Shown piece by piece: positions 3,123-25,310 of a DNA stretch of 37,163 nucleotides. Position 1 is the stretch's first letter; each line of letters begins with the position of its first letter. The notes beneath the pieces were generated by a model that was not told the DNA's origin, ran no database searches, and worked only from the letters and a program-made list of their open reading frames with translations. Made by a program: the position numbers and the translations under genes. Source of the DNA: Bdellovibrionales bacterium (GTDB lineage: Bacteria; Bdellovibrionota; Bdellovibrionia; Bdellovibrionales; UBA1609); contig JAGRAE010000007.1 of assembly GCA_020435005.1 (NCBI GenBank), forward strand, positions 1-37,163. Direction: 5' to 3'.

Positions 3123-4181
3123 ATGGACAAAGAAAAAATCGCTGATCAGGTAAAAGATTACTACGGAAAAACTCTGCAAAACTCCAATGATTTACAAACA
3201 AATGCTTGTTGTACAAATGTTTTTTATCCAAATCACATTAAAACAGCGCTTCAAAATATTCACGATGATGTTTTAACTAAGTATTACGGCTGTGGTTTAA
3301 CTATTCCAACAAACTTAAAGGATTTAAAAGTTTTAGATCTTGGTAGTGGATCGGGACGTGATTGCTATATTTTATCCCAACTGGTTGGTGAAAATGGCTC
3401 TGTTGTCGGGGTTGACATGACTCCTGAACAATTAACCGTGGCTAGAAATCATTTAGAATATCATCGTGAAAAATTTAATTATAAAAAAAGCAATGTTGAA
3501 TTTATCGAAGCAGACATTCAAAAATTAAGGGCTGCGGGTTTAAAAGAAAACGATTTTGATCTCATAGTCTCTAATTGTGTGGTGAATTTAGTTCCTGATA
3601 AAAGAGCTGTTTTATCAGAGGCCTATAGTTTATTAAAAGAGGGTGGAGAGCTTTATTTTTCAGATGTCTATTGCAATCGTCGCCTACCCAGCGAGCTAAT
3701 GGCCGATAATGAACTTTGGGGGGAGTGTTTGAGTGGCGCTCTATATTGGAATGATTTTGAAAACTTAGCAAAAGAGGTGGGCTTTAAGGATCCAAGAGTT
3801 GTAGAAAGTAGTCCGATCACTATCAGTAATCCAAAACTGGAAGCGAAACTAGAAGGTTTCGAATTTTACTCAGTGACTTATAGATTGTTTAAACTGCCTC
3901 AACTAGAGCCTCACTGTGAAGACTATGGACAAGCCATTATTTATCGAGGTGGCATAACAGAGCAAGAAAAAATATTTAAACTTGATGATCACCATGTGTT
4001 TCACAAAGGTAAAGTGGCCACTGTTTGTGGCAACACCTACTATATGCTTTATAGTACACGCTTTAAAAATCACTTTGAATTTATTGGCAACTTTGAAACT
4101 CATTATGGGATCTTTGAAGGCTGTGGCGTGAGCTCTCCTTACGAAGGCAAATCTCAAACTGAAGATGTGGGCTGCTGTTAA
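3123..4181 (+). CDS. arsM: Arsenite S-adenosylmethionine methyltransferase (AS3MT-like)
   Basis: A 352-residue cytoplasmic enzyme that methylates As(III) using S-adenosylmethionine. The SAM site is VLDLGSGSGRDCY (70-82) with the acidic end of strand 2 at VGVDMT. All four cysteines that bind and shuttle arsenic in animal AS3MT have counterparts: C29 in TNACCT, C57 in YYGCGL, C152 in VSNCVVNLVPDK and C202 in LWGECLSGALYW. These segments resemble animal AS3MT strikingly. The C-terminal domain (about 250-352) ends with Cys-rich GCGVSSPYEG and GCC. AGGAGG lies seven bases before the ATG. The stop TAA shares one base with the start of the radical SAM gene, so the two are translated together. The divergent glycosyltransferase suggests that methylarsenic is processed further, not only volatilised. 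Confidence 0.93.
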   Translation: MDKEKIADQVKDYYGKTLQNSNDLQTNACCTNVFYPNHIKTALQNIHDDVLTKYYGCGLTIPTNLKDLKVLDLGSGSGRDCYILSQLVGENGSVVGVDMTPEQLTVARNHLEYHREKFNYKKSNVEFIEADIQKLRAAGLKENDFDLIVSNCVVNLVPDKRAVLSEAYSLLKEGGELYFSDVYCNRRLPSELMADNELWGECLSGALYWNDFENLAKEVGFKDPRVVESSPITISNPKLEAKLEGFEFYSVTYRLFKLPQLEPHCEDYGQAIIYRGGITEQEKIFKLDDHHVFHKGKVATVCGNTYYMLYSTRFKNHFEFIGNFETHYGIFEGCGVSSPYEGKSQTEDVGCC

Positions 4182-5119
4182 TGGAAAGAGAAATGACAAA
4201 TCCAAAACAAAAATTTAGTCACCCGGACATTACAGCCAAAGGAGAAGTGCGTGCTAGCGTTGCCCCAGTAAATTTAGAAACACTTTGGTTTAACACTGGG
4301 ACCTTGTGCAATTTAGCTTGTCACAATTGTTATATTGAATCGAGTCCAAAAAATGATCGATTGGTCTATTTAAGTTTAAATGATGTTGTTAGTTACCTTG
4401 ATGAAATTGCCAGTAAAGATTTTAAAACTACAGAAATAGGGTTCACCGGCGGTGAACCCTTTATGAACTTAGCGATGATTTCTATTCTTGAGGAAACTTT
4501 AAAACGAGGATACAAAGTTCTGGTCTTAACAAATGCTATGAAGCCTATGCACAAAAAGAAAGAAGCATTGTTAAGCTTAAAAGAAAGTTACGGCGACAAA
4601 CTTGTTCTACGAGTTTCACTTGATCACTATACCCAAGAACTTCATGAAAAAGAGCGAGGTCCAAAGTCATGGGAACCCGCTATCGAAGGATTGGTGTGGC
4701 TAAGTGAAAATAGTTTTAATATTGATGTTGCTGGACGCACATGTTGGCACGAAAGTGAAGACGAAATTAGAAAAGGTTTTGCTAAATTATTTAAAGAGAA
4801 AAATATAGACATAGACGCCTTTAATCCTTCGCAACTTGTTTTGTTTCCAGAAATGCAAGAAGGCGAAGATGTCCCTGAAATTACCATAGCTTGTTGGGAT
4901 ATTTTGAAAAAATCACCCGCTGATATTATGTGTGCATCTTCGCGCATGATAGTTAAAAGAAAGGGCCGTGAAAAAGCCGAAGTCGTTGCCTGTACTCTTT
5001 TGCCTAATGACGAAGAATTTAGCTTGGGACAAACATTGAGTGAAGCATGGCAGCCGGTAAAGTTGAATCATGAGTATTGTGCAAAGTTCTGCGTTCTCGG
5101 TGGCGGTAGCTGCTCCTAA
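4181..5119 (+). CDS. Radical SAM enzyme linked to ArsM
   Basis: A 312-residue radical SAM protein. The [4Fe-4S] motif is CNLACHNC in GTLCNLACHNCYIESSP (about 43-59, CxxxCxxC), and the SAM glycine motif is GFTGGEPF. The C-terminal third is cysteine-rich (ACWDIL, IMCASS, ACTLLP, YCAKFC and a final GGGSC), so it may hold an auxiliary cluster or a metal/arsenic site. It overlaps arsM by one base (TAATG). A second ATG at 4193, preceded by GGAAAGAGAA, is an alternative start. ArsS-type radical SAM enzymes make organoarsenicals from methylated arsenic. This protein belongs to a related widespread group, usually annotated only as radical SAM, whose spacing and ending differ from ArsS as I remember it. 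The substrate is therefore an inference from its neighbours. Confidence 0.8.
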   Translation: MEREMTNPKQKFSHPDITAKGEVRASVAPVNLETLWFNTGTLCNLACHNCYIESSPKNDRLVYLSLNDVVSYLDEIASKDFKTTEIGFTGGEPFMNLAMISILEETLKRGYKVLVLTNAMKPMHKKKEALLSLKESYGDKLVLRVSLDHYTQELHEKERGPKSWEPAIEGLVWLSENSFNIDVAGRTCWHESEDEIRKGFAKLFKEKNIDIDAFNPSQLVLFPEMQEGEDVPEITIACWDILKKSPADIMCASSRMIVKRKGREKAEVVACTLLPNDEEFSLGQTLSEAWQPVKLNHEYCAKFCVLGGGSCS

Positions 5120-10915: not shown

Positions 10916-10973
10916 ATGATATTTAAGCATACCAAAAATCAAGTTATTGTTGTTTCAAGAGGGAGGGGAACTC

Positions 10974-11366
10974 ATGAAAAAAATAATGTTACTTGCTTTA
11001 CTCGTACTTTCTACACAAATAGCTTGTTTATCCGAACATCAAGCAATACCACAAAATAAAAATCCTAATCAGGACACAGGACCAGCCGACATTTCCGATG
11101 ATGAAGATCAGGAAGATGAGAAGAATGAAATACTAAGCTATAACAAAGATATCCTGCCAATTATAAAAAACAGGTGCTCTCTTTGCCACAATGAGGGCTC
11201 AAATTTACCTTTTTGGGAAAATTATGAAACTGTTTTTAATAGTAAAGAGCTTGTAAAGAGAAGAGTGTTTATAGTCCAGGATATGCCGCGCTTTAATGCA
11301 ACAGAAATGACACTTGAGGAAAGAGACCTGGTGGCCACATGGATTGATCAAGGAGCACTAAAGTAA
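10974..11366 (+). CDS. Monoheme c-type cytochrome lipoprotein
   Basis: A 130-residue lipoprotein: leader MKKIMLLALLVLSTQIAC with lipid cysteine C18, an acidic, probably flexible linker (about 25-55), then a small cytochrome domain. The heme motif is CSLCH (68-72) in the context ILPIIKNRCSLCH, typical of planctomycete/Bdellovibrio-type single-heme modules. M104 in VQDMPRF is the likely axial ligand, and the module ends LVATWIDQGALK as usual. I chose the ATG at 10974, with GGGAGGGG five bases before it, over an ATG at 10947 that would add a non-signal extension. It is anchored in the envelope as an electron carrier. Its partner is unknown, and it is probably under control of the divergent LysR gene. 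Confidence 0.85.
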   Translation: MKKIMLLALLVLSTQIACLSEHQAIPQNKNPNQDTGPADISDDEDQEDEKNEILSYNKDILPIIKNRCSLCHNEGSNLPFWENYETVFNSKELVKRRVFIVQDMPRFNATEMTLEERDLVATWIDQGALK

Positions 11367-16699: not shown

Positions 16700-17983
16700 A
16701 TGAACAAGGTGATATTGGTAGCCACACTTGCTGTCCTGTTTGTTGGCCAAGATGTTTGGTCTGCAGACATAAGAAAAAAGCCAAGTACTTGTGAAGAAAA
16801 TTTAAACCAAGAAATCACACCTCAGATGAAACGAGCCAGACAATTATATACGGCTCTAACAGGTACTCCAATTGCTTATTGTGATGAAAAAATTGAACGC
16901 ATGACAATTTATCTTGCTGCTGGTCGCGCAAGGGATGCCGTGCGAGTCGCAATTGCAGATCCTGACTTCTATAATATTAAAGTTAGAGAATTGGCTTCGA
17001 GAATTTGTACTTTTGAAAACACCACAAGAACCCCTGTCAACGATTGTATTGCATTGGTAGTAGGTGCTGTTCGCGATGGTCTCGATGCAAGAGAGTTACT
17101 AACAGGTAACTTCTTCTATATGATAGATCGAGCTAAAGCCACGGGCGCAACAAGAAGTAGTGTGATCAACGACGTTTTAAAATCCAACAATCATTATGCC
17201 CAAGTAGATGACCTAGAATTATCAATGTATCACGTACTAATGAAAGTCGATGGTCAAAAGATTGTCGATCCTAAAAATAATAATAATGTTATTTCTGCAC
17301 AAGATCCTGCAGGAGCGATTACTACAAGATCTTGGATGATGGCACATGCTTTTGCCGGTACAAACAGAAGATTAGTTGAAAAATCATTTGAACAATTTTT
17401 ATGCTCACCCATTCGCGAATGGGCTGACAACACTATGCCTGACACTTATGTGGGTCGTGATGTTACAAGAACTCCCGGGGATGAACCAGCTAAGTATTTA
17501 GTTACATGTAAAGGTTGTCATGCACCTATGGATTCCATGAGAAGCGTATTTGCACATGCTGATTGGAGTTCTGATAGTAATACAGGAAACAACACATTTT
17601 ATAGATACGATCCAACTCAAGTTACACCAAAAATGAATAGAAACACCAATGAAACACCCACTTTAACTTATTTAATTACTGATGATACTTTTGATAACTA
17701 TGCCACTAAAGGTGCTAATGCTGCTCGTTTTGGCTGGAGAGGTTCTACAACAGGTAAGAGTATGAATGAGTTTGCATCCATGTTAGCTAACTCTGAACAG
17801 TTTAATCGTTGTATGGCAACACATGTATTTAAAACTGTGTGTGGCCGATTACCAGAGCCAGAATTAAAAACATTAATAGATACTTATGCGAGAGATTTTG
17901 ACCAAAATGAAAAAAGAGATTTAAGAGTATTATTTGAAAGGATTGCCTTAAGACCAGAATGTACTGGTGATGGCAATCAATAA
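16700..17983 (+). CDS. Exported c-type cytochrome with DUF1588/DUF1592-like traits
   Basis: 427 residues with signal peptide MNKVILVATLAVLFVGQDVWSA. A heme motif CKGCH lies near 270-274 in TCKGCHAPMDSMRSV, similar to the CxxCH-x-x-hydrophobic-DP segment of planctomycete DUF1588/DUF1592 cytochromes. Upstream is the segment TNRRLVEKSFEQFLCSPIREW, also like those families (RxxLLExxLCxxI). The C-terminal part includes VCGRLPEPELKTLIDTYARDF and ends in conserved cysteines. It is the first gene of a five-gene operon whose other members are lipoproteins and a Tat-exported DUF1501-like protein. In planctomycetes, DUF1501 proteins travel with such cytochromes. It is probably a periplasmic redox component, substrate unknown. 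Confidence 0.75.
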   Translation: MNKVILVATLAVLFVGQDVWSADIRKKPSTCEENLNQEITPQMKRARQLYTALTGTPIAYCDEKIERMTIYLAAGRARDAVRVAIADPDFYNIKVRELASRICTFENTTRTPVNDCIALVVGAVRDGLDARELLTGNFFYMIDRAKATGATRSSVINDVLKSNNHYAQVDDLELSMYHVLMKVDGQKIVDPKNNNNVISAQDPAGAITTRSWMMAHAFAGTNRRLVEKSFEQFLCSPIREWADNTMPDTYVGRDVTRTPGDEPAKYLVTCKGCHAPMDSMRSVFAHADWSSDSNTGNNTFYRYDPTQVTPKMNRNTNETPTLTYLITDDTFDNYATKGANAARFGWRGSTTGKSMNEFASMLANSEQFNRCMATHVFKTVCGRLPEPELKTLIDTYARDFDQNEKRDLRVLFERIALRPECTGDGNQ

Positions 17984-18015
17984 GGTGAAGGTAAAATATG
18001 TTGGAGGCAAATAAA

Positions 18016-18729
18016 ATGAAAAAAGTATTTAATACAAAAAGAGCCCTCAAATTGTTCACAGCCGTAGTTGCAGCTAGTTTTACCATCACAGCTTTTCAAA
18101 ACTGTGGAAGCTCTGGAGAAAGTTCAAGTGCATCTTTAGATTATACAGAAGCGGGAGAAACAGCGGTCTCGCCAATAAAAGTAGAAAAGACAGATAGAAT
18201 TTTACACTCTCGAAACGTCGCAAATGCTCTGGTTCAAAGTTTGGGTGTAGAAAATTCTGGAAACACTAACAATTTAGATCCACTTTACAACGCGGCTATT
18301 AGCTCACAATTACTTTTGTCTGAAACAGGTGATTACGATTCTATTACAGGTGGGCAAATTACAATTCATGCAAACAACTTAGCTGAACTCGCTTGTGAAA
18401 GAATGGTATTTTATGGCGAAAGACCACTTTTAACCGTGGTAGATGGCCAAGTTGAAGACAAGAGAAGATTTTTTAAAGGCCTTTATATTGGAGATAATGC
18501 GGCTCAAGCTACTCCTCAGGTTCCACTAGAAGATGAAACAAGATATAGAGCAGCAATTAAAAGATTAGGTCGAACACTCTGGGGTAGAGATGTAGAGCAA
18601 GCTGAAGAAGATTTAATATTAAGCGCAGCCAGTCCAATTTTGTCTGATGCAAAAGCCAATCGAGGTTTTAGAGCTGCTGTAATGACTTGTACAATAATGG
18701 CTTCAACTTTTGACTTTATGAGACAATAA
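18016..18729 (+). CDS. Lipoprotein, partner of the cytochrome (DUF1592-like fragment)
   Basis: 237 residues. The leader MKKVFNTKRALKLFTAVVAA with TAFQNC gives lipid cysteine C30 in a FQNC context. The start at 18016 has GGAGG seven bases upstream and follows the previous stop by 32 bases; an ATG at 17998 would add six residues before a poorer ribosome site. The mature part includes AIKRLGRTLWGRDVEQAEEDLILS and ends VMTCTIMASTFDFMRQ, which echoes the C-terminal tail of DUF1592-type proteins (LARRLWGRxxxxxE.. and ASPxFLYR). It may be the counterpart of a region that is one protein in planctomycetes. No heme motif is present. It is an envelope lipoprotein in the cytochrome operon. Confidence 0.65.
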   Translation: MKKVFNTKRALKLFTAVVAASFTITAFQNCGSSGESSSASLDYTEAGETAVSPIKVEKTDRILHSRNVANALVQSLGVENSGNTNNLDPLYNAAISSQLLLSETGDYDSITGGQITIHANNLAELACERMVFYGERPLLTVVDGQVEDKRRFFKGLYIGDNAAQATPQVPLEDETRYRAAIKRLGRTLWGRDVEQAEEDLILSAASPILSDAKANRGFRAAVMTCTIMASTFDFMRQ

Positions 18730-18747
18730 GGGTTTTGGGGGATGAAA

Positions 18748-20367
18748 ATGAAAAAAATGAACAGACCACTTACTAAAAATGATATCATTGAGTTAGCGCG
18801 AAAAAAAGGTATCAAGTTACACGATGATCATCCAGTACCAACAACTCGAAGAGAATTTCTGGCTCAAGGTTTAATGGGATTCGCAGGATACATGATGGCA
18901 CCTTCATTAATTCATATGCTAAGCACACAAGCCCATGCACAATCTGTTGAAGAGTGTACGACCTTACTTACACCAGCTCGAACAATGCCAGGGTTTTTGC
19001 ACCTAAATTTAGGTGGTGGAGCTGGAATAACAGGACAATGGGCAGTAAGAAAATTAGCTGATCCCAATCGACCATTAGCCACGCGAAACAATGAAGACAA
19101 CTTAATTTATATTAACCGCTATAGGGCTCTTGGTTTAGGTGAAAACTCAGCCGCATTCACTGTTAACAAATCACAATTTGCCAACCCCTTTGAAGTTGTT
19201 AATAATGACGGAGATGTTGGTGCGCAAATGTTTCGCCGCATGCTTGAAGTAGCCGGAACAGCTTGTGCAAACACTTCGGCGACTGGCGTATGTGTGGCCA
19301 GTCAAGATGATACATCTTCAAATAATAAACTGGGACCACAAGGTTTAATTCATGCAGTACAAAAAGCAAAAGAAGTTAAATTTAGAATCGCTCAAAACTT
19401 ATCCAATCGCAGTGGTACAGCCTTAACTGGAGTTGACCAAGACGTAGCAGGAAGAAACCGCCCCTATGCTCCCATAGTCGCCAATCAACTCAATGACATT
19501 CTTAGAGTTATTGGCCAAGCTCCAACCTCTGAAACAGAAGCCGGCTCAAATGTGGTATTAACAGATGCAGAAAAGAAAAGAATGCTTGAAGTTATAAATA
19601 ACTTATCAGGCTCTCAAGCGAGAAAAGTGGCCAGTGTTGGGTCAGCAACTAGAGAAAATTTTGTAAAGCTTTATCAAGAAGCTTCTGGAAAAAGTTATTG
19701 TCAATTAATTGTTCCTCAAGATTCTGTAGATCCCTATGCTAACACAGATATAGCTAGTTTATGGCAAACTCAAATTCAAGGAAATTTTAGCGCATTAAGT
19801 AATGATGCTGAAAGAGTAAAAGGTATTGCTTCACTTGTTTTTGCGGCGGTAAACGGATGGGCCGGAACTGTCGGTATTGACCTTGGTGGTTACGACTATC
19901 ATGGCAACAATAGAAATAACACTGATCCACGAGATGGTGATGCAGGTTATATCCTGGCTGGAGCACTTAGAACAGCAGAGATTCTGCAAAAACCTCTTTT
20001 TATAGTTGTAACATCAGATGGTGCTACGGGTGCAGCGAGTTCTGCTAACCGATTTGCCAACTGGGCCAGTGACCGCGGTAATGGTGGTTGTATATTATCA
20101 TTTATGTACGACCCACGAAACGCCGCAGGTCAGTCTAAAGAAGGTTATTTAGCAAATATAGATACACAATTAGGTCACTATACTGATGGTCAATCGGCAG
20201 ATGACAATACATTAGTTGGTAACCCAGAAAGAGCTACCATCGCCGTGATTCATCGTTATTTAGCTTTTTCTGAGTTTAATGATTGGAAAACAATTACGCA
20301 GGCTATTGATGATAGGTCTGCATTTACTAATGAGGAATTGCAATACATTGCAAAGTTTGGAGGATAA
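18748..20367 (+). CDS. Tat-exported DUF1501-like protein
   Basis: About 539 residues. A Tat signal is present: TTRREFLAQGLMGFAGYMMA (twin arginines R34-R35) ending AHAQ. The body resembles DUF1501 proteins, with GFLHLNLGGGAGITGQWAVRK near the start and GTVGIDLGGYDYHGN followed by ILQKPLFIVVTSDGATG, where the DUF1501 family has an acidic metal-binding loop. I chose the ATG at 18748, six bases after GGGGG; the ATG at 18742 is directly abutted by it and 18757 is also in frame. Tat export suggests folding with a cofactor in the cytoplasm. It lies between two lipoproteins of the cytochrome operon. The reaction is unknown for the family (phosphatase-like/sulfatase-like folds have been suggested). 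Confidence 0.75.
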   Translation: MKKMNRPLTKNDIIELARKKGIKLHDDHPVPTTRREFLAQGLMGFAGYMMAPSLIHMLSTQAHAQSVEECTTLLTPARTMPGFLHLNLGGGAGITGQWAVRKLADPNRPLATRNNEDNLIYINRYRALGLGENSAAFTVNKSQFANPFEVVNNDGDVGAQMFRRMLEVAGTACANTSATGVCVASQDDTSSNNKLGPQGLIHAVQKAKEVKFRIAQNLSNRSGTALTGVDQDVAGRNRPYAPIVANQLNDILRVIGQAPTSETEAGSNVVLTDAEKKRMLEVINNLSGSQARKVASVGSATRENFVKLYQEASGKSYCQLIVPQDSVDPYANTDIASLWQTQIQGNFSALSNDAERVKGIASLVFAAVNGWAGTVGIDLGGYDYHGNNRNNTDPRDGDAGYILAGALRTAEILQKPLFIVVTSDGATGAASSANRFANWASDRGNGGCILSFMYDPRNAAGQSKEGYLANIDTQLGHYTDGQSADDNTLVGNPERATIAVIHRYLAFSEFNDWKTITQAIDDRSAFTNEELQYIAKFGG

Positions 20368-20414
20368 TTTAATCGTCCAAACTTCTAATTAATAATTTTT
20401 AGGGAGTTAGTTGT

Positions 20415-21299
20415 ATGTCAGCGGATAGGGTACGTAGTAACAACGCTAAAAAATTTAATTTCAAAGTAGTTTCTTTAACTGCTATTTCTGGCTTAATTCT
20501 ATTAAGCCTATTCCAGAACTGCGCCAAACATGATGGTTTGGGAGGGGAAGGTTTAGGCTCTGCAAGTTGCGAGCCCTATATGAAATCTGTATTCGACACA
20601 CACATATATGGTTATGCAGTGACTTACTGTTCAACCTGCCATGTGCCTAATGGTCAGGGCAAAGGAAAGTTTGCTACCAATGATCAAGCGGCCGCGTGGG
20701 GTGCTTTTAGTGTAATTAGTGATGTACAAACAAAATTCTATAACAATTCAATAAGCACTTCACACGCTCCAGGTGTTACAGGACCACAACTTGAAGGTCC
20801 GGCAGCTAATATCAAACAAGCTCTTAAAGATGCGGAAACTGCTTGTTTACAAAATGCAGGTGGCGGACTTCCAGGTATTTCTGTGCAAACAAGTTTAAAA
20901 GAAATAGGCCTCGAAGTTGGGGGTACTACTACTTTATCTTGGATACTGAGCTCAGAGTTATCACCAGAAATTGGTGATACTGGCGGTGCCGTACTGTTTG
21001 TTGATGTGCAAGCTGTTACAGCTAATTATTATTACATCAGTCGTCCTAGAATTCGCACTGTGACACAAGAAATTTATGTTAAAGGAATGGAAATCATTAT
21101 TAATGGAGAAGTTAAAGATACGGTCACATTATTTAATGATATAGATAAATTAATACCTCCTGGTACGAGCGAGAACACATTAACCGGTATATTAACCGAA
21201 CAAGGTTCAACAATTCCTGCTGTGGTAGATTCTTCAGATACATTAATTATTGGTTTTGAAGTTTTACAAATCGGTGCACCAGAAACCGAGGAAGAATAG
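20415..21299 (+). CDS. Monoheme cytochrome lipoprotein
   Basis: 294 residues. The leader ISGLILLSLFQNC gives lipid cysteine C36 in a FQNC context. One heme motif, CSTCH (72-76), lies in AVTYCSTCHVPNGQGKGKFA. The second half (about 160-290) is beta-rich (TTTLSWILSSELSPEIGDTGGAVLFVDV, YYYISRPRIRTVTQEIYVKG), possibly a sandwich domain that binds protein or sugar. AGGGAG lies eight bases before the ATG. The fourth gene of the unit. The stop is only 10 bases from the next gene's ATG, so they are co-translated. Confidence 0.75.
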   Translation: MSADRVRSNNAKKFNFKVVSLTAISGLILLSLFQNCAKHDGLGGEGLGSASCEPYMKSVFDTHIYGYAVTYCSTCHVPNGQGKGKFATNDQAAAWGAFSVISDVQTKFYNNSISTSHAPGVTGPQLEGPAANIKQALKDAETACLQNAGGGLPGISVQTSLKEIGLEVGGTTTLSWILSSELSPEIGDTGGAVLFVDVQAVTANYYYISRPRIRTVTQEIYVKGMEIIINGEVKDTVTLFNDIDKLIPPGTSENTLTGILTEQGSTIPAVVDSSDTLIIGFEVLQIGAPETEEE

Positions 21300-21309
21300 G
21301 GGACGTAAT

Positions 21310-22314
21310 ATGAAAATAAACACTTCACTTTTAAAAGCCGTACTTTTGGTATCTTTGATTGTACCTTTATACCAAAACTGTGGTCGCCTTAAATCTTCTG
21401 GTACGAACGGATCCTTTAGTTCAACGACTGCGCGCAATAGTGAATTTGATTATGTCGTATTTAATTCTGCCTTCGAAGAAATTGCGGAGACTACTCCAAC
21501 CTTTAATGTAGGCGAAAAGTATAACTTTAGGATTAATTTAGAAAAATTAGAAGGTGCATTAATCTCCTGGGATCTTTTATTCTTGGGTGCATCTTGTGAC
21601 TTAAAAGTTTTTGCAGACAAAGAATCAGCTGAAATGGAATGTTTTTCTAACGGTGAAATTGGCGTTTCTGTTACGGCACTTTATCCTAATGGCAGTGAAA
21701 AGTATGGCGAGATTAGAGGATTTGTATTTGATACGGCCAGCGGAGGCGGTGGCTCTAACATCACACCAATAACGGTAACTATTCGCGCAGCAGGTAATGC
21801 TGAAGATTGGTTAATTGAAAACCCTCCAGCCGATCACAATCAAGTGAACATAGTTACAGGTTCAGGAACCAATAGAAATGCTGTAGTTTACCTAGGGCAG
21901 CCCATTCGCATTGTGAACAAAGATGATGAAGAACACAGACCCGGTGGTGCTACGGATGGTATTCCCTGTAAAACGGCTCCATTTAATTTAAAAACGGATC
22001 AATCCTACGACTGTATTACTAATACCGCTTTAGCTGATACAGATAAATATATAATTGATAGAAGAGATGATATGTCCTTACTAGATGGCGGTCGTTTTGG
22101 TTTTAAAATTGTAGATAGTCGTGCTGAATGGGTAAATCAAAACTGTACACAATGTCATGCAAACGTAAGTAACATCACTGTAGTTAGTCCCAACGACCTA
22201 TTAACTAGATTGAATAATGCAATTACCAACGAGCCAGGAATGGCCGCCTATTCAACACTGACAGCTGAACAAAGAAGATCTCTGGCGTTCTTTATGATGT
22301 ATCAGCCTAAGTAA
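21310..22314 (+). CDS. Cytochrome lipoprotein with cupredoxin-like region
   Basis: 334 residues. The leader MKINTSLLKAVLLVSLIVPL runs into YQNC (lipid cysteine C24). The start at 21310 has AGGGGACG before it; an ATG-less upstream start at 21250 lies inside the previous gene. The middle part (about 130-260) carries ITVTIRAAGNAEDWLIENPP, then GQPIRIVNKDDEEHRPGG with a following PCKTAPF. This is the arrangement of a cupredoxin copper site (His in the first loop, then Cys...His/Met), though the second histidine is not certain. A single heme motif CTQCH (279-283) sits near the end, followed by LLTRLNNAITNEPGMAAYSTLTAEQRRSLA, with a Met as possible ligand. Last gene of the operon; it converges on a methyltransferase gene six bases away. 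Confidence 0.7.
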   Translation: MKINTSLLKAVLLVSLIVPLYQNCGRLKSSGTNGSFSSTTARNSEFDYVVFNSAFEEIAETTPTFNVGEKYNFRINLEKLEGALISWDLLFLGASCDLKVFADKESAEMECFSNGEIGVSVTALYPNGSEKYGEIRGFVFDTASGGGGSNITPITVTIRAAGNAEDWLIENPPADHNQVNIVTGSGTNRNAVVYLGQPIRIVNKDDEEHRPGGATDGIPCKTAPFNLKTDQSYDCITNTALADTDKYIIDRRDDMSLLDGGRFGFKIVDSRAEWVNQNCTQCHANVSNITVVSPNDLLTRLNNAITNEPGMAAYSTLTAEQRRSLAFFMMYQPK

Positions 22315-22320
22315 ATAGAA

Positions 22321-23670
22321 TCAGACCCTGCGTTCATAGTAGTTGATCAGAAAAGTAATCAGGGTCTCTTCTGCCAGCTCTTCTGACATTTTATAGTGAT
22401 TCACCATCAAAGGAATAATATCATTTCTACAGCGTTTACCATCCATTGTATTAAGTAACTCATAAGCTACCTGGCTTCTAATTTGTGCTTGATCCATCAT
22501 TTCATTGCGTGGGATGGGTTCCTGTGGATCCGTAATCCACTTGGGTAGGTAATGATAGTAAGGTGGCTCTTTTGCGTCTTTTACCTTTTTTGCGCGAAAG
22601 CCTAAGACCTTTTCTTTTCGCGACTGTGAACTGTGAGGAGAGACTAAATATTCCATTTCAAACAATTCAATAGTTTCTATATCGAAACCTGATTCAACAA
22701 GTAATTCTTCTAGTTCTTGTTTAGAATAACTTCTAGATTTGAAATTATCATATCCCAAAGGACCTAAATTTATCCAACATCCTTCTTTATCTAAACAATG
22801 ATTAATTTTTTTCGCGAGAAGAGAAAAATCCTGAGCAACAATATCTATAAACCACGGTGTGACAATTGCAGATAAACTTTTAGGTTTGAATGGTAAATTT
22901 ACGGCGTCGGCAAATAAAAACATGAAATTATCTGGTATCGTTTTATCATAACTTAGTTTTTGTTTTACTGCGCAATCTTTTAATTCTATAGGAGCGATGG
23001 GGACTTCATAAAACTCTAAGGGCTCTTTATTGAGAACTTTCTTAGCACTGAAGAAAAGAAGGGGATTTATATCAATAGCCACTGATAACTCGGGTGCAAT
23101 GGCCAGATGAACATCAACACACATTCGCGAAGCACCAGCTCCTAAAAATGCAATGTTATTCAATTTAGTCTTAGGAAATAGGTCTATAACTTTTTGTGAA
23201 AACTGTTTTTTTTCATTTGTGTTCCACGCCCAATCTCTAAACAATGTATGAAAATAACTATTAAGATGCTGAGTATGAGGGAGCTTTTCAAGTACCAACT
23301 TTTGACTTTTTGGTTTGCTAACTTCACCTGTCCCAATAAGTGGCTCAAGAACTTCAAAAATTTTTTCAGCATTATGATGAACGGCTTCTGCCAATTGGTT
23401 CAACCTTTGTTTAGTTTTTTCCATTAGATCGGGTTTAGACAACTGATGCTCAATCATCGACATTTGACCTTGTAAAAACATTACTAAACTTTTTAAGCTA
23501 TTTTGCCATTGGTAAAGCTGAATGTCAGGTTCTCGAAAAAGCCAAGGTATGCCCATGTAGGATTCAAAACTAAAGTTCTCTTTGGTTGAGTGGAGTAAAC
23601 CATCTTTGATTTCAATTGTCGATTTAGTTCGTGGACATTCAAGTAATAATGCTAGTTTCTCTAGTGACAA
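22321..23670 (-). CDS. Three-part methyltransferase (Trm112-like, N2227-like, PqqD-like)
   Basis: 449 residues. Residues 1-48 look like a Trm112/UPF0434 head that has lost most cysteines (LLECPRTKSTIEIKDGLLHS, then MGIPWLF). Residues about 175-330 form a SAM-dependent methyltransferase: LNNIAFLGAGASRMCVDVHLA, SVAIDINPLLF, FADAVNLPFKP, then VTPWFIDI and WINLGPLGYDN. The last phrase resembles N2227/carnosine N-methyltransferases. Residues 400-449 resemble PqqD/winged-helix tails (VAYELLNTMDGKRCRNDIIP). The start is a TTG at 23670 with GGAG seven bases upstream; that ribosome site lies over the end of the upstream gene's stop region, 11 bases after it. So it forms an operon with the cytochrome-barrel gene. 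The substrate is unknown. Confidence 0.7.
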   Translation of the reverse strand: MSLEKLALLLECPRTKSTIEIKDGLLHSTKENFSFESYMGIPWLFREPDIQLYQWQNSLKSLVMFLQGQMSMIEHQLSKPDLMEKTKQRLNQLAEAVHHNAEKIFEVLEPLIGTGEVSKPKSQKLVLEKLPHTQHLNSYFHTLFRDWAWNTNEKKQFSQKVIDLFPKTKLNNIAFLGAGASRMCVDVHLAIAPELSVAIDINPLLFFSAKKVLNKEPLEFYEVPIAPIELKDCAVKQKLSYDKTIPDNFMFLFADAVNLPFKPKSLSAIVTPWFIDIVAQDFSLLAKKINHCLDKEGCWINLGPLGYDNFKSRSYSKQELEELLVESGFDIETIELFEMEYLVSPHSSQSRKEKVLGFRAKKVKDAKEPPYYHYLPKWITDPQEPIPRNEMMDQAQIRSQVAYELLNTMDGKRCRNDIIPLMVNHYKMSEELAEETLITFLINYYERRV

Positions 23671-23681
23671 TCCCTGTCTCC

Positions 23682-25310
23682 TTAAAAATAGAGGTGTGCT
23701 TGAATAAGTCCCTCAGTTTCATCAAATTTCTCAGCTGTTTTATCTTTAGGTGTGTCTGTGGTTTGCCTATAATGCATAGATAAATCAACTCCAGCTACCG
23801 GGAAAAAACGAAAGCCGATAGTGGTTTGAGTCGCGTCACCTTTGCCCATTTGTTGAACACCCGGACCAAAACCAGCGGCAATATTTGAAAATTCAAAAAC
23901 ACTTTCAAGATAGAATTCTCGCCACAGTTTATATCTCACTTCAAAAGTTGTAATAGTACCGGCATTTTCAAGACCTTTTGTATATTCTTTTGCTATATTT
24001 AAGGCTTCTGCATTTAAAACAAAATTTTTATACATCATTCCCGCCGAAACAGAATGAGCTGTACGTTTTAATGCATTGTTATTTGCATCTTTTGCATTAT
24101 TATCGGTGACATCTCTATAAGAATAAACAAGAGAAGCACCAAGTGTCACCCATCGCGCACCAAGATTAACAATGTAACCTTCTTCTTGATTTAGACTCGT
24201 GTTTGTCATGGGTTGAATAAAATGTATATTGGCAAAAGGAACATTAGGTGCAAGACCAAAAGAAAAAGCTTTGTTTTGCACACTATAGGCTTTGTTATTA
24301 TAAAGAATTGATTGAGCAAGGGTTGTATGATCTGGAGTAAAATGTTCAAACATGGGTTTGTACATGCCATACATCATAAAGCTATTGTAAAACATATCGT
24401 CGACCATAACATAAGCAGATCGATTTATAACATTGCTAGAAGTTGTATAGTCTAGGTCAGTATTTGTCGGGGTATTAAAGTAGCGAGACTCTACAACAAT
24501 GCTGAAATTATCAACCTTTCTGACGAAAGGTTTCATCTGCAAACCTATATCTAAAGCCATGGGCCAAAATGTACTCTTGTTATCTGAATCTATGGGTTGG
24601 CGACCCATATAACGAAAATCTAAGCCAGCGAGAATAGCTTCTCGTTTTTTTAATCGATATGGATCATCATAAGGCACAGTTGTACCAAACATTTTCCAAG
24701 AGTTTGCCATTTCATTCCAATTGTTGTCGCCATTGGACCTCTCATTATAAAACTCAGAAAAATCTGCCTCAGGAAAGTCACTTTCTGTATTGGTGAAAGC
24801 GTGTCGTCCTGACTTTTTATCCCTATACTTTTTTGTGGCATTGATAGCTTTAATAAGTGCACGTCTTTGATTTCTTGCACTAGGGATTACTTTGGGGTGG
24901 TAATCTTTTGGACTGATAGGCTTTTTGCTGACTTTGTGAGTCTCTCCATCTACGGCCATTAATGTGGCAAGGGCTTCTTGAGCCTGCTTGTCTTGAATAT
25001 AATCTTGAGCAAACCAGGGCAAAGGTTTTTCAGTATCTTTGCCCTTTATTTTCCAGGCAAAAGACCTCATCCATCTATCTGAGTTCCATTTTCCATAAAA
25101 GCTTCTTAAGCCGCCGCCATTAGGGTTAACATGACAACCTTGACAAGAAAGAGTACAGCGACGGTCTTTGGGAGGGACGTTATATCTTGAAGGGGCGTGG
25201 CAGCCGGCACAGTTTTGTGCAAACCTAGTAGCCATCCACGGCTCTGCAAAACCTTGAGAAGTTATTAAAACAAAAGCTGCAAAAACTAAAAATGCTAATA
25301 GTGATCTCAT
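23682..25310 (-). CDS. Diheme cytochrome fused to outer-membrane beta-barrel
   Basis: 542 residues. A signal peptide (MRSLLAFLVFAAFVLITSQG, ending GFA) is followed by two heme motifs: CAGCH (34-38) and CQGCH (56-60), the latter in the pattern CTLSCQGCHVNPNGGG. A linker of about 130 residues is lysine-rich. From about residue 230 to the end the sequence alternates as beta strands (for example MALDIGLQMKPFVRKVDNFSI, FEVRYKLWREFYLESVFEFS, IGFRFFPVAGVDLSMHYRQT) and ends in phenylalanine (AHLYF), the mark of an outer-membrane barrel. The overall plan recalls fused cytochrome-porins such as Cyc2 (which has one heme), so it may pass electrons across the outer membrane. It precedes a methyltransferase gene in the same operon. 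No clear ribosome site is present. Confidence 0.75.
   Translation of the reverse strand: MRSLLAFLVFAAFVLITSQGFAEPWMATRFAQNCAGCHAPSRYNVPPKDRRCTLSCQGCHVNPNGGGLRSFYGKWNSDRWMRSFAWKIKGKDTEKPLPWFAQDYIQDKQAQEALATLMAVDGETHKVSKKPISPKDYHPKVIPSARNQRRALIKAINATKKYRDKKSGRHAFTNTESDFPEADFSEFYNERSNGDNNWNEMANSWKMFGTTVPYDDPYRLKKREAILAGLDFRYMGRQPIDSDNKSTFWPMALDIGLQMKPFVRKVDNFSIVVESRYFNTPTNTDLDYTTSSNVINRSAYVMVDDMFYNSFMMYGMYKPMFEHFTPDHTTLAQSILYNNKAYSVQNKAFSFGLAPNVPFANIHFIQPMTNTSLNQEEGYIVNLGARWVTLGASLVYSYRDVTDNNAKDANNNALKRTAHSVSAGMMYKNFVLNAEALNIAKEYTKGLENAGTITTFEVRYKLWREFYLESVFEFSNIAAGFGPGVQQMGKGDATQTTIGFRFFPVAGVDLSMHYRQTTDTPKDKTAEKFDETEGLIQAHLYF

Follow-up and report, generated by a model that had tools for sequence, protein, structure and literature searches.

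Architecture of the fusion protein

The window analyzed here, a 37,163-nucleotide stretch of contig JAGRAE010000007.1 from a Bdellovibrionales genome, encodes on its reverse strand (23682-25310) a protein of 542 amino acids that, as judged from the open reading frame and its homologues, is a fusion of a diheme cytochrome with a porin; all features of this protein lie on the same strand. The N-terminal signal peptide (residues 1-22, 25245-25310) reads by eye as a hydrophobic stretch extending to about A22, with cleavage expected around SQGFA/EPW, and is modeled by AlphaFold2 as a helix over residues 2-14, with low pLDDT at residues 13-22. It is followed by heme site 1, CAGCH (residues 34-38, 25197-25211), by Cys52 (25155-25157), a third cysteine in RRCTLSCQGCH and the only non-heme cysteine of the protein, and by heme site 2, CQGCH (residues 56-60, 25131-25145), which runs on into VNPNGGG. 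The conserved heme domain ends at about residue 85 (CQGCHVNPNGGGLRxxYGxWxxxRW) and is connected to the barrel by a linker (residues 86-215, 24666-25055) that is modeled partly at low confidence (pLDDT about 46-63 over residues 120-170). The linker contains 12% lysine compared with 5% in the barrel of the same protein (family medians, 14% and 4%, respectively), is also 14% acidic, and varies in length between 50 and 130 residues across the diheme family. Scans for promoters and terminators gave scores no better than those of shuffled sequences.

An earlier note on this DNA, made from the sequence alone, had assigned to this protein a signal peptide, the two CxxCH motifs and, at the C-terminus, a barrel with Phe as its last residue. 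The signal peptide is borne out, re-reading of the open reading frame returns the coordinates, strand and motif positions exactly, and the C-terminus reads ...IQAHLYF after 16 predicted strands, with Phe or Tyr as the terminal residue in 45 of the 46 homologues in which this position is aligned. The linker had been described as lysine-rich over about residues 60-230; the enrichment holds but these limits do not, residues 61-85 (NPNGGGLRxxYGxWxxxRW) being conserved heme-domain sequence outside the linker.

A predicted 16-strand barrel

With the alignment of homologues as input, AlphaFold2 yields a model (pLDDT 82.6, pTM 0.81) in which 16 barrel strands lie between residues 226 and 541 of the porin-type domain (residues 226-542, 23685-24635). 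The block means of pLDDT are mostly above 88 in the barrel, low in the linker, and between 62 and 78 around residues 31-60. Foldseek comparison of the model with the PDB retrieves the general porins OmpT, OprP, OmpF, PorB and DcaP (best E-value 4.1e-11, TM-score normalized by target up to 0.70), that is, solved closed porins. The strand count proposed as a check in the earlier note thus comes to 16 in the prediction, and a closed barrel, the lack of which would have spoken against the note, is made probable by these matches. By strand number and likeness to solved porins, the predicted barrel would be assigned to the general porin fold. Sequence searches of the PDB produced only generic CxxCH matches.

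The longest gap between barrel strands in the model, residues 318-345 (24276-24359), separates strands 5 and 6, where general porins have their constriction loop L3, and contains His328. In the AlphaFold2 model of a distant, Myxococcota-type relative, which is of low confidence (pLDDT 55), the strands again number about 16, and those numbered 5 and 6 are likewise joined by a long loop.

Conservation of the heme sites and the barrel histidines

Both CxxCH motifs, with invariant Cys and His, are present in all 47 aligned homologues, at a spacing of 22 residues in 43 of these and 24 residues in the 4 Myxococcota-type ones; given two motifs at a near-constant spacing throughout, a chance CxxCH pair can be rejected, and the lack of heme motif conservation that would have spoken against the earlier note was not found. 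The heme region is the best-conserved part of the protein, with mostly 50-73% identity compared with 31-42% for the barrel in a search of 59 relatives. Taken together, the conserved motifs, the signal peptide and the presence in the source genome of a member of the cytochrome c assembly family (PF01578) point to a putative c-type cytochrome. The heme domain contains no conserved His or Met beyond the proximal histidines; Cys52, which is present in 47 of 47 diheme proteins and in none of 19 monoheme relatives (see below), is the sole further conserved sulfur candidate within it.

In the barrel, only two histidines outside the heme sites are conserved across the diheme family (47-row alignment). 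His328 (24327-24329), located in the loop 3 motif G...[DNE]H, is present in 46 of 47 diheme proteins and in all 19 monoheme relatives (65 of 66 altogether). His539 (23694-23696), in the last strand, is present in all 45 diheme proteins in which that position is aligned and in 14 of the 19 monoheme relatives, and is predicted from the alternation of hydropathy along the strand to face the lumen. Met251, conserved in 46 of 47 homologues, was considered as an axial ligand and rejected because the same strand parity places it on the lipid side.

Comparison with Cyc2 and other outer-membrane cytochrome systems

In the papers found, fused cytochrome-porins are described as monoheme iron oxidases of the Cyc2 type. 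Cyc2 is defined by a signal peptide, one CXXCH motif with AXPXFAR[QK][TY] upstream and PXL downstream, and 16 predicted strands, and its heme domain is its most conserved part (PMC8406198). The window protein is similar to Cyc2/Cyt572 in combining a signal peptide, an N-terminal heme site and a predicted 16-strand barrel in one polypeptide, in having the heme domain as the best-conserved part, and in the distance of 12 residues between the Ala of A-x-P and the first heme Cys. All 47 diheme homologues have two heme sites instead of the single CXXCH of Cyc2; AXPXFAR[QK][TY] is absent, the window protein reading AEPWMATRFAQNCAGCH; and there is no PXL 4 residues after CXXCH, where CHAPSR and CHVNPNGGG are found instead. 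For direct comparison, 5 Cyc2-like plasmid-encoded proteins were collected with a query based on the motif; three of these contain the exact published motif, one has AIPLFNRQT and one AVPSFAAQT. His328 and His539 have no counterpart among the invariant residues of these five proteins, and the barrel of the diheme family is not alignable with theirs. An hhalign comparison of the diheme family with the same five sequences covers 46 columns, comprising the signal peptide and the first heme site (probability 91, E-value 9.6e-7), a match that could reflect shared ancestry or merely the succession of a signal peptide and a CxxCH motif. Thus, the layout that had been likened to Cyc2 is indeed the same, yet membership of the Cyc2 family is not supported, as the protein has two hemes, lacks the motif and aligns over those 46 columns only.

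MtrAB, MtoAB and PioAB also hold heme in or at an outer-membrane barrel, but that barrel has 26 strands and accommodates a separate decaheme protein; a search of the source genome for the MtrB/PioB-type barrel (PF11854) found none. The one pertinent paper found for Bdellovibrionota describes MtrA and MtrB homologues in magnetotactic species of the phylum (PMC13200544), a different system from the diheme porin. The NCBIfam model NF041762 (diheme_GEGP) matches weakly over the two heme motifs (E-value 0.014), with 14.6 bits against a curated cut-off of 300, and the source genome contains no members of that family.

Monoheme relatives, origin and spread of the family

A second, shorter cytochrome-barrel family, with proteins of about 350-417 amino acids, is widespread in Bdellovibrionota. 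In each of the 19 members read, a single CxxCH precedes a glycine-rich, GGG-type motif, and a predicted barrel region comes after. An hhalign comparison of the diheme family with 16 of the monoheme proteins extends over 358 columns (probability 99.5, E-value 4.5e-22). The two families share CHVxPxGGG, Met251 and His328, whereas the monoheme proteins have one heme, a short linker and no Cys52. Heme site 1 is absent from the aligned monoheme relatives, and their single CxxCH, depending on the alignment, matches site 2 of the diheme form (in all 19 of 19 rows of one alignment) or straddles both sites; because of this, the diheme protein looks like a monoheme one with an inserted heme-bearing segment of 22-24 residues. 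In a tree of the barrel only, the 42 main diheme rows form one branch (SH-aLRT 99), and a single diheme clade that includes the Myxococcota-type pair has a p-AU of 0.915, which is compatible with a single origin but does not prove it. A tentative scenario, in which we place less than even confidence, is that His328 and the lumen-facing His539 serve as distal ligands of the plug hemes, with the iron held jointly by the plug and the barrel wall, and that the diheme form arose once, when a monoheme ancestor acquired a second heme segment by insertion.

The source genome also encodes one of these 19, a monoheme cytochrome-barrel protein of 402 amino acids (L094:22-1227, reverse strand, contig C112), which reads CTACHFSPAGGG and belongs to a subfamily apart from most monoheme relatives.

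Diheme homologues are detected at E<1e-20 in 25 of 59 relative genomes, including that of the window itself; the 26th match (E-value 3e-4) is a monoheme relative. A search of public genome contigs with the alignment as the query identified 53 loci, nearly all of which encode a recognizable member or fragment, whereas a single-sequence query retrieved no relatives from the same contigs, so that the alignment query was needed. Of 291 Bdellovibrionota genomes sampled, 100 have a match at E<=0.001; by hand count, this is a strong match to the diheme family in 26 of the 100 and a weak one in all others. A search for the diheme family in plasmids found no match, and no Pfam or NCBIfam model covers either the diheme or the monoheme family above its cut-off. 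Two contig titles, if taken literally, would extend the family to Zetaproteobacteria (L059) and Streptomyces griseus (L058). Both cases of spread were rejected: the L059 genome falls in the same class as that of L064, and the tree places L058 within the diheme clade of Bdellovibrionota. These contigs appear to belong to Bdellovibrionota-type genomes, and their titles look wrong.

Gene neighborhood and genome context

Immediately downstream of the barrel gene, at a distance of 11 bp, starts a gene on the same strand (22321-23670) for a carnosine-N-methyltransferase-like protein (Pfam CARME, 2.9e-10), the C-terminus of which shows a weak PqqD-like match. The methyltransferase neighbor pointed out in the earlier note is therefore real but carries no apparent meaning: one partial relative occurs near one other barrel gene, and a functional link was rejected for lack of a conserved neighbor across about 50 loci.

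A run of genes lies on the forward strand at 16700-22314. It starts with a DUF1585-like protein (16700-17983) that contains one CxxCH (CKGCH) and matches Pfam PSD2 at 0.001, below the curated cut-off, with relatives near the barrel gene in 5 other loci; then come a small lipoprotein, assigned by sequence and position (17998-18729), a secreted protein of 541 amino acids that bears a Tat-type signal and matches no Pfam or NCBIfam model (18742-20367), a heme lipoprotein with one CxxCH (20415-21299), relatives of which adjoin the barrel gene or lie near it, the cluster being represented in 9 other loci, and a second lipoprotein with one CxxCH, recognized by sequence (21250-22314). The same run is again close to the barrel gene in L039, L046, L048, L053 and L075, where it includes the DUF1585-like and Tat-type proteins and, in most of the five loci, also the heme lipoproteins and the small lipoprotein. 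Overall, CxxCH is found in 12 of 89 immediate neighbors of the barrel gene compared with 13 of 328 genes at a distance of at least four genes (Fisher p = 0.002, an approximate value given that the roughly 50 loci are related), and the CxxCH-bearing neighbors mostly have lipoprotein-type starts. Most homologues across these loci have no obvious redox neighbor.

This context raises the possibility of a redox enzyme module, in which the porin would admit a small organic or inorganic substrate and the hemes would take up electrons during its oxidation or detoxification, with the DUF1585-like protein, the Tat protein and the heme lipoproteins as partners and the barrel as a substrate gate rather than a respiratory wire. 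The recurrence of the run beside the barrel gene in the five other loci is consistent with such a module, as is co-occurrence across whole genomes: the DUF1585-like protein (E<1e-10) is found, by hand count, in 20 of 25 genomes with the diheme porin compared with 11 of 34 without it (p = 5e-4, in a test that ignores phylogeny and genome size, several of the porin-less genomes being small). In most genomes that contain both, however, the DUF1585-like gene and the diheme porin are not adjacent, and the presence of the module protein in the 11 porin-less genomes also argues against this reading. The module is considered unlikely, although it is the most serious of the alternatives.

Elsewhere in the window, a small protein with one CxxCH (CSLCH), a lipoprotein-like start and a weak Haem_bd match is encoded at 10947-11366 on the forward strand. 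Also on the forward strand, at 3123-5119, an arsenite-methyltransferase-like gene is followed, with a 1-base overlap, by a radical SAM gene with weak similarity to ArsS, a pair possibly involved in arsenic methylation or arsenosugar chemistry.

Possible role in electron transfer

The computation supports the fused domains, the two conserved heme motifs, the predicted barrel, the conserved barrel histidines and the heme-protein neighbors; passage of electrons across the outer membrane, as the earlier note had suggested, is plausible. The evidence tips slightly toward an outer-membrane protein in which a diheme c-type cytochrome is fused to a 16-strand porin and the hemes carry electrons between the lumen and the heme lipoproteins or cytochromes of the envelope, in a Cyc2-like manner. 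The genome-level co-occurrence of the DUF1585-like gene and the search that found no MtrB/PioB-type barrel count in favor of this reading as well, and the many homologues with no obvious redox neighbor count against it. The N-terminal domain (residues 23-85), on its flexible linker, would occupy or adjoin the periplasmic opening of the barrel; small redox compounds from outside would reach the hemes via the barrel lumen, and heme lipoproteins or other envelope cytochromes would relay the electrons, so that the mechanism would be that of Cyc2 extended by one heme. Because the plan resembles that of Cyc2 and the source genome encodes heme-copper oxidases (two subunit I genes), electron uptake appears the likelier direction, probably with a small soluble compound such as Fe2+ being oxidized to feed these oxidases; electron export would be the alternative. 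Both hemes lie close to the mature N-terminus and may not by themselves reach across the membrane.

A secreted protein may contain heme and still play no part in electron transfer. The c-type cytochrome TfcP of Myxococcus, which has His/Cys ligation and whose potential is close to -310 mV, is unlikely to function in electron transport (PMC8833165). By analogy, the two hemes could have a structural or regulatory role, stabilizing a gating plug in the porin with no net transfer of electrons, and Cys52 could be a Cys ligand of the TfcP type; as this cysteine is invariant and unpaired, the TfcP precedent is the main warning against the electron-transfer reading. The enrichment of heme-protein neighbors speaks against a purely structural heme, and two hemes 22 residues apart would better suit electron passage, so that such a role seems rather improbable. 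Least credible is a porin for the uptake of iron or siderophores in which the hemes would reduce Fe(III) at the pore, given that the weak match to the LbtU siderophore porin model (E-value 0.00093) comes from only 1 of 21 family members and that the inspected locus maps, in which most neighbors lack a family annotation, contain no recurrent iron-transport neighbor.

A second branch of fused cytochrome-porins

The mono- and diheme forms described here are an uncatalogued second branch of fused cytochrome-porins, spread through Bdellovibrionota. Searches of the open-licence literature on diheme cytochrome-porins, Bdellovibrio outer-membrane cytochromes and DUF1501 cytochrome modules returned nothing on the diheme porin family, nor was any paper found there on cytochrome-porin fusions in Bdellovibrionota; coverage of open-licence papers only makes this weak evidence. 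Surveys with Cyc2 models would probably miss this branch. The diheme porin presents a testable way of building an electron path through a small porin. Bdellovibrionota are a phylum known for predators, and if the diheme porin conducts electrons, its host may use extracellular compounds as a source of energy or as a sink for electrons.
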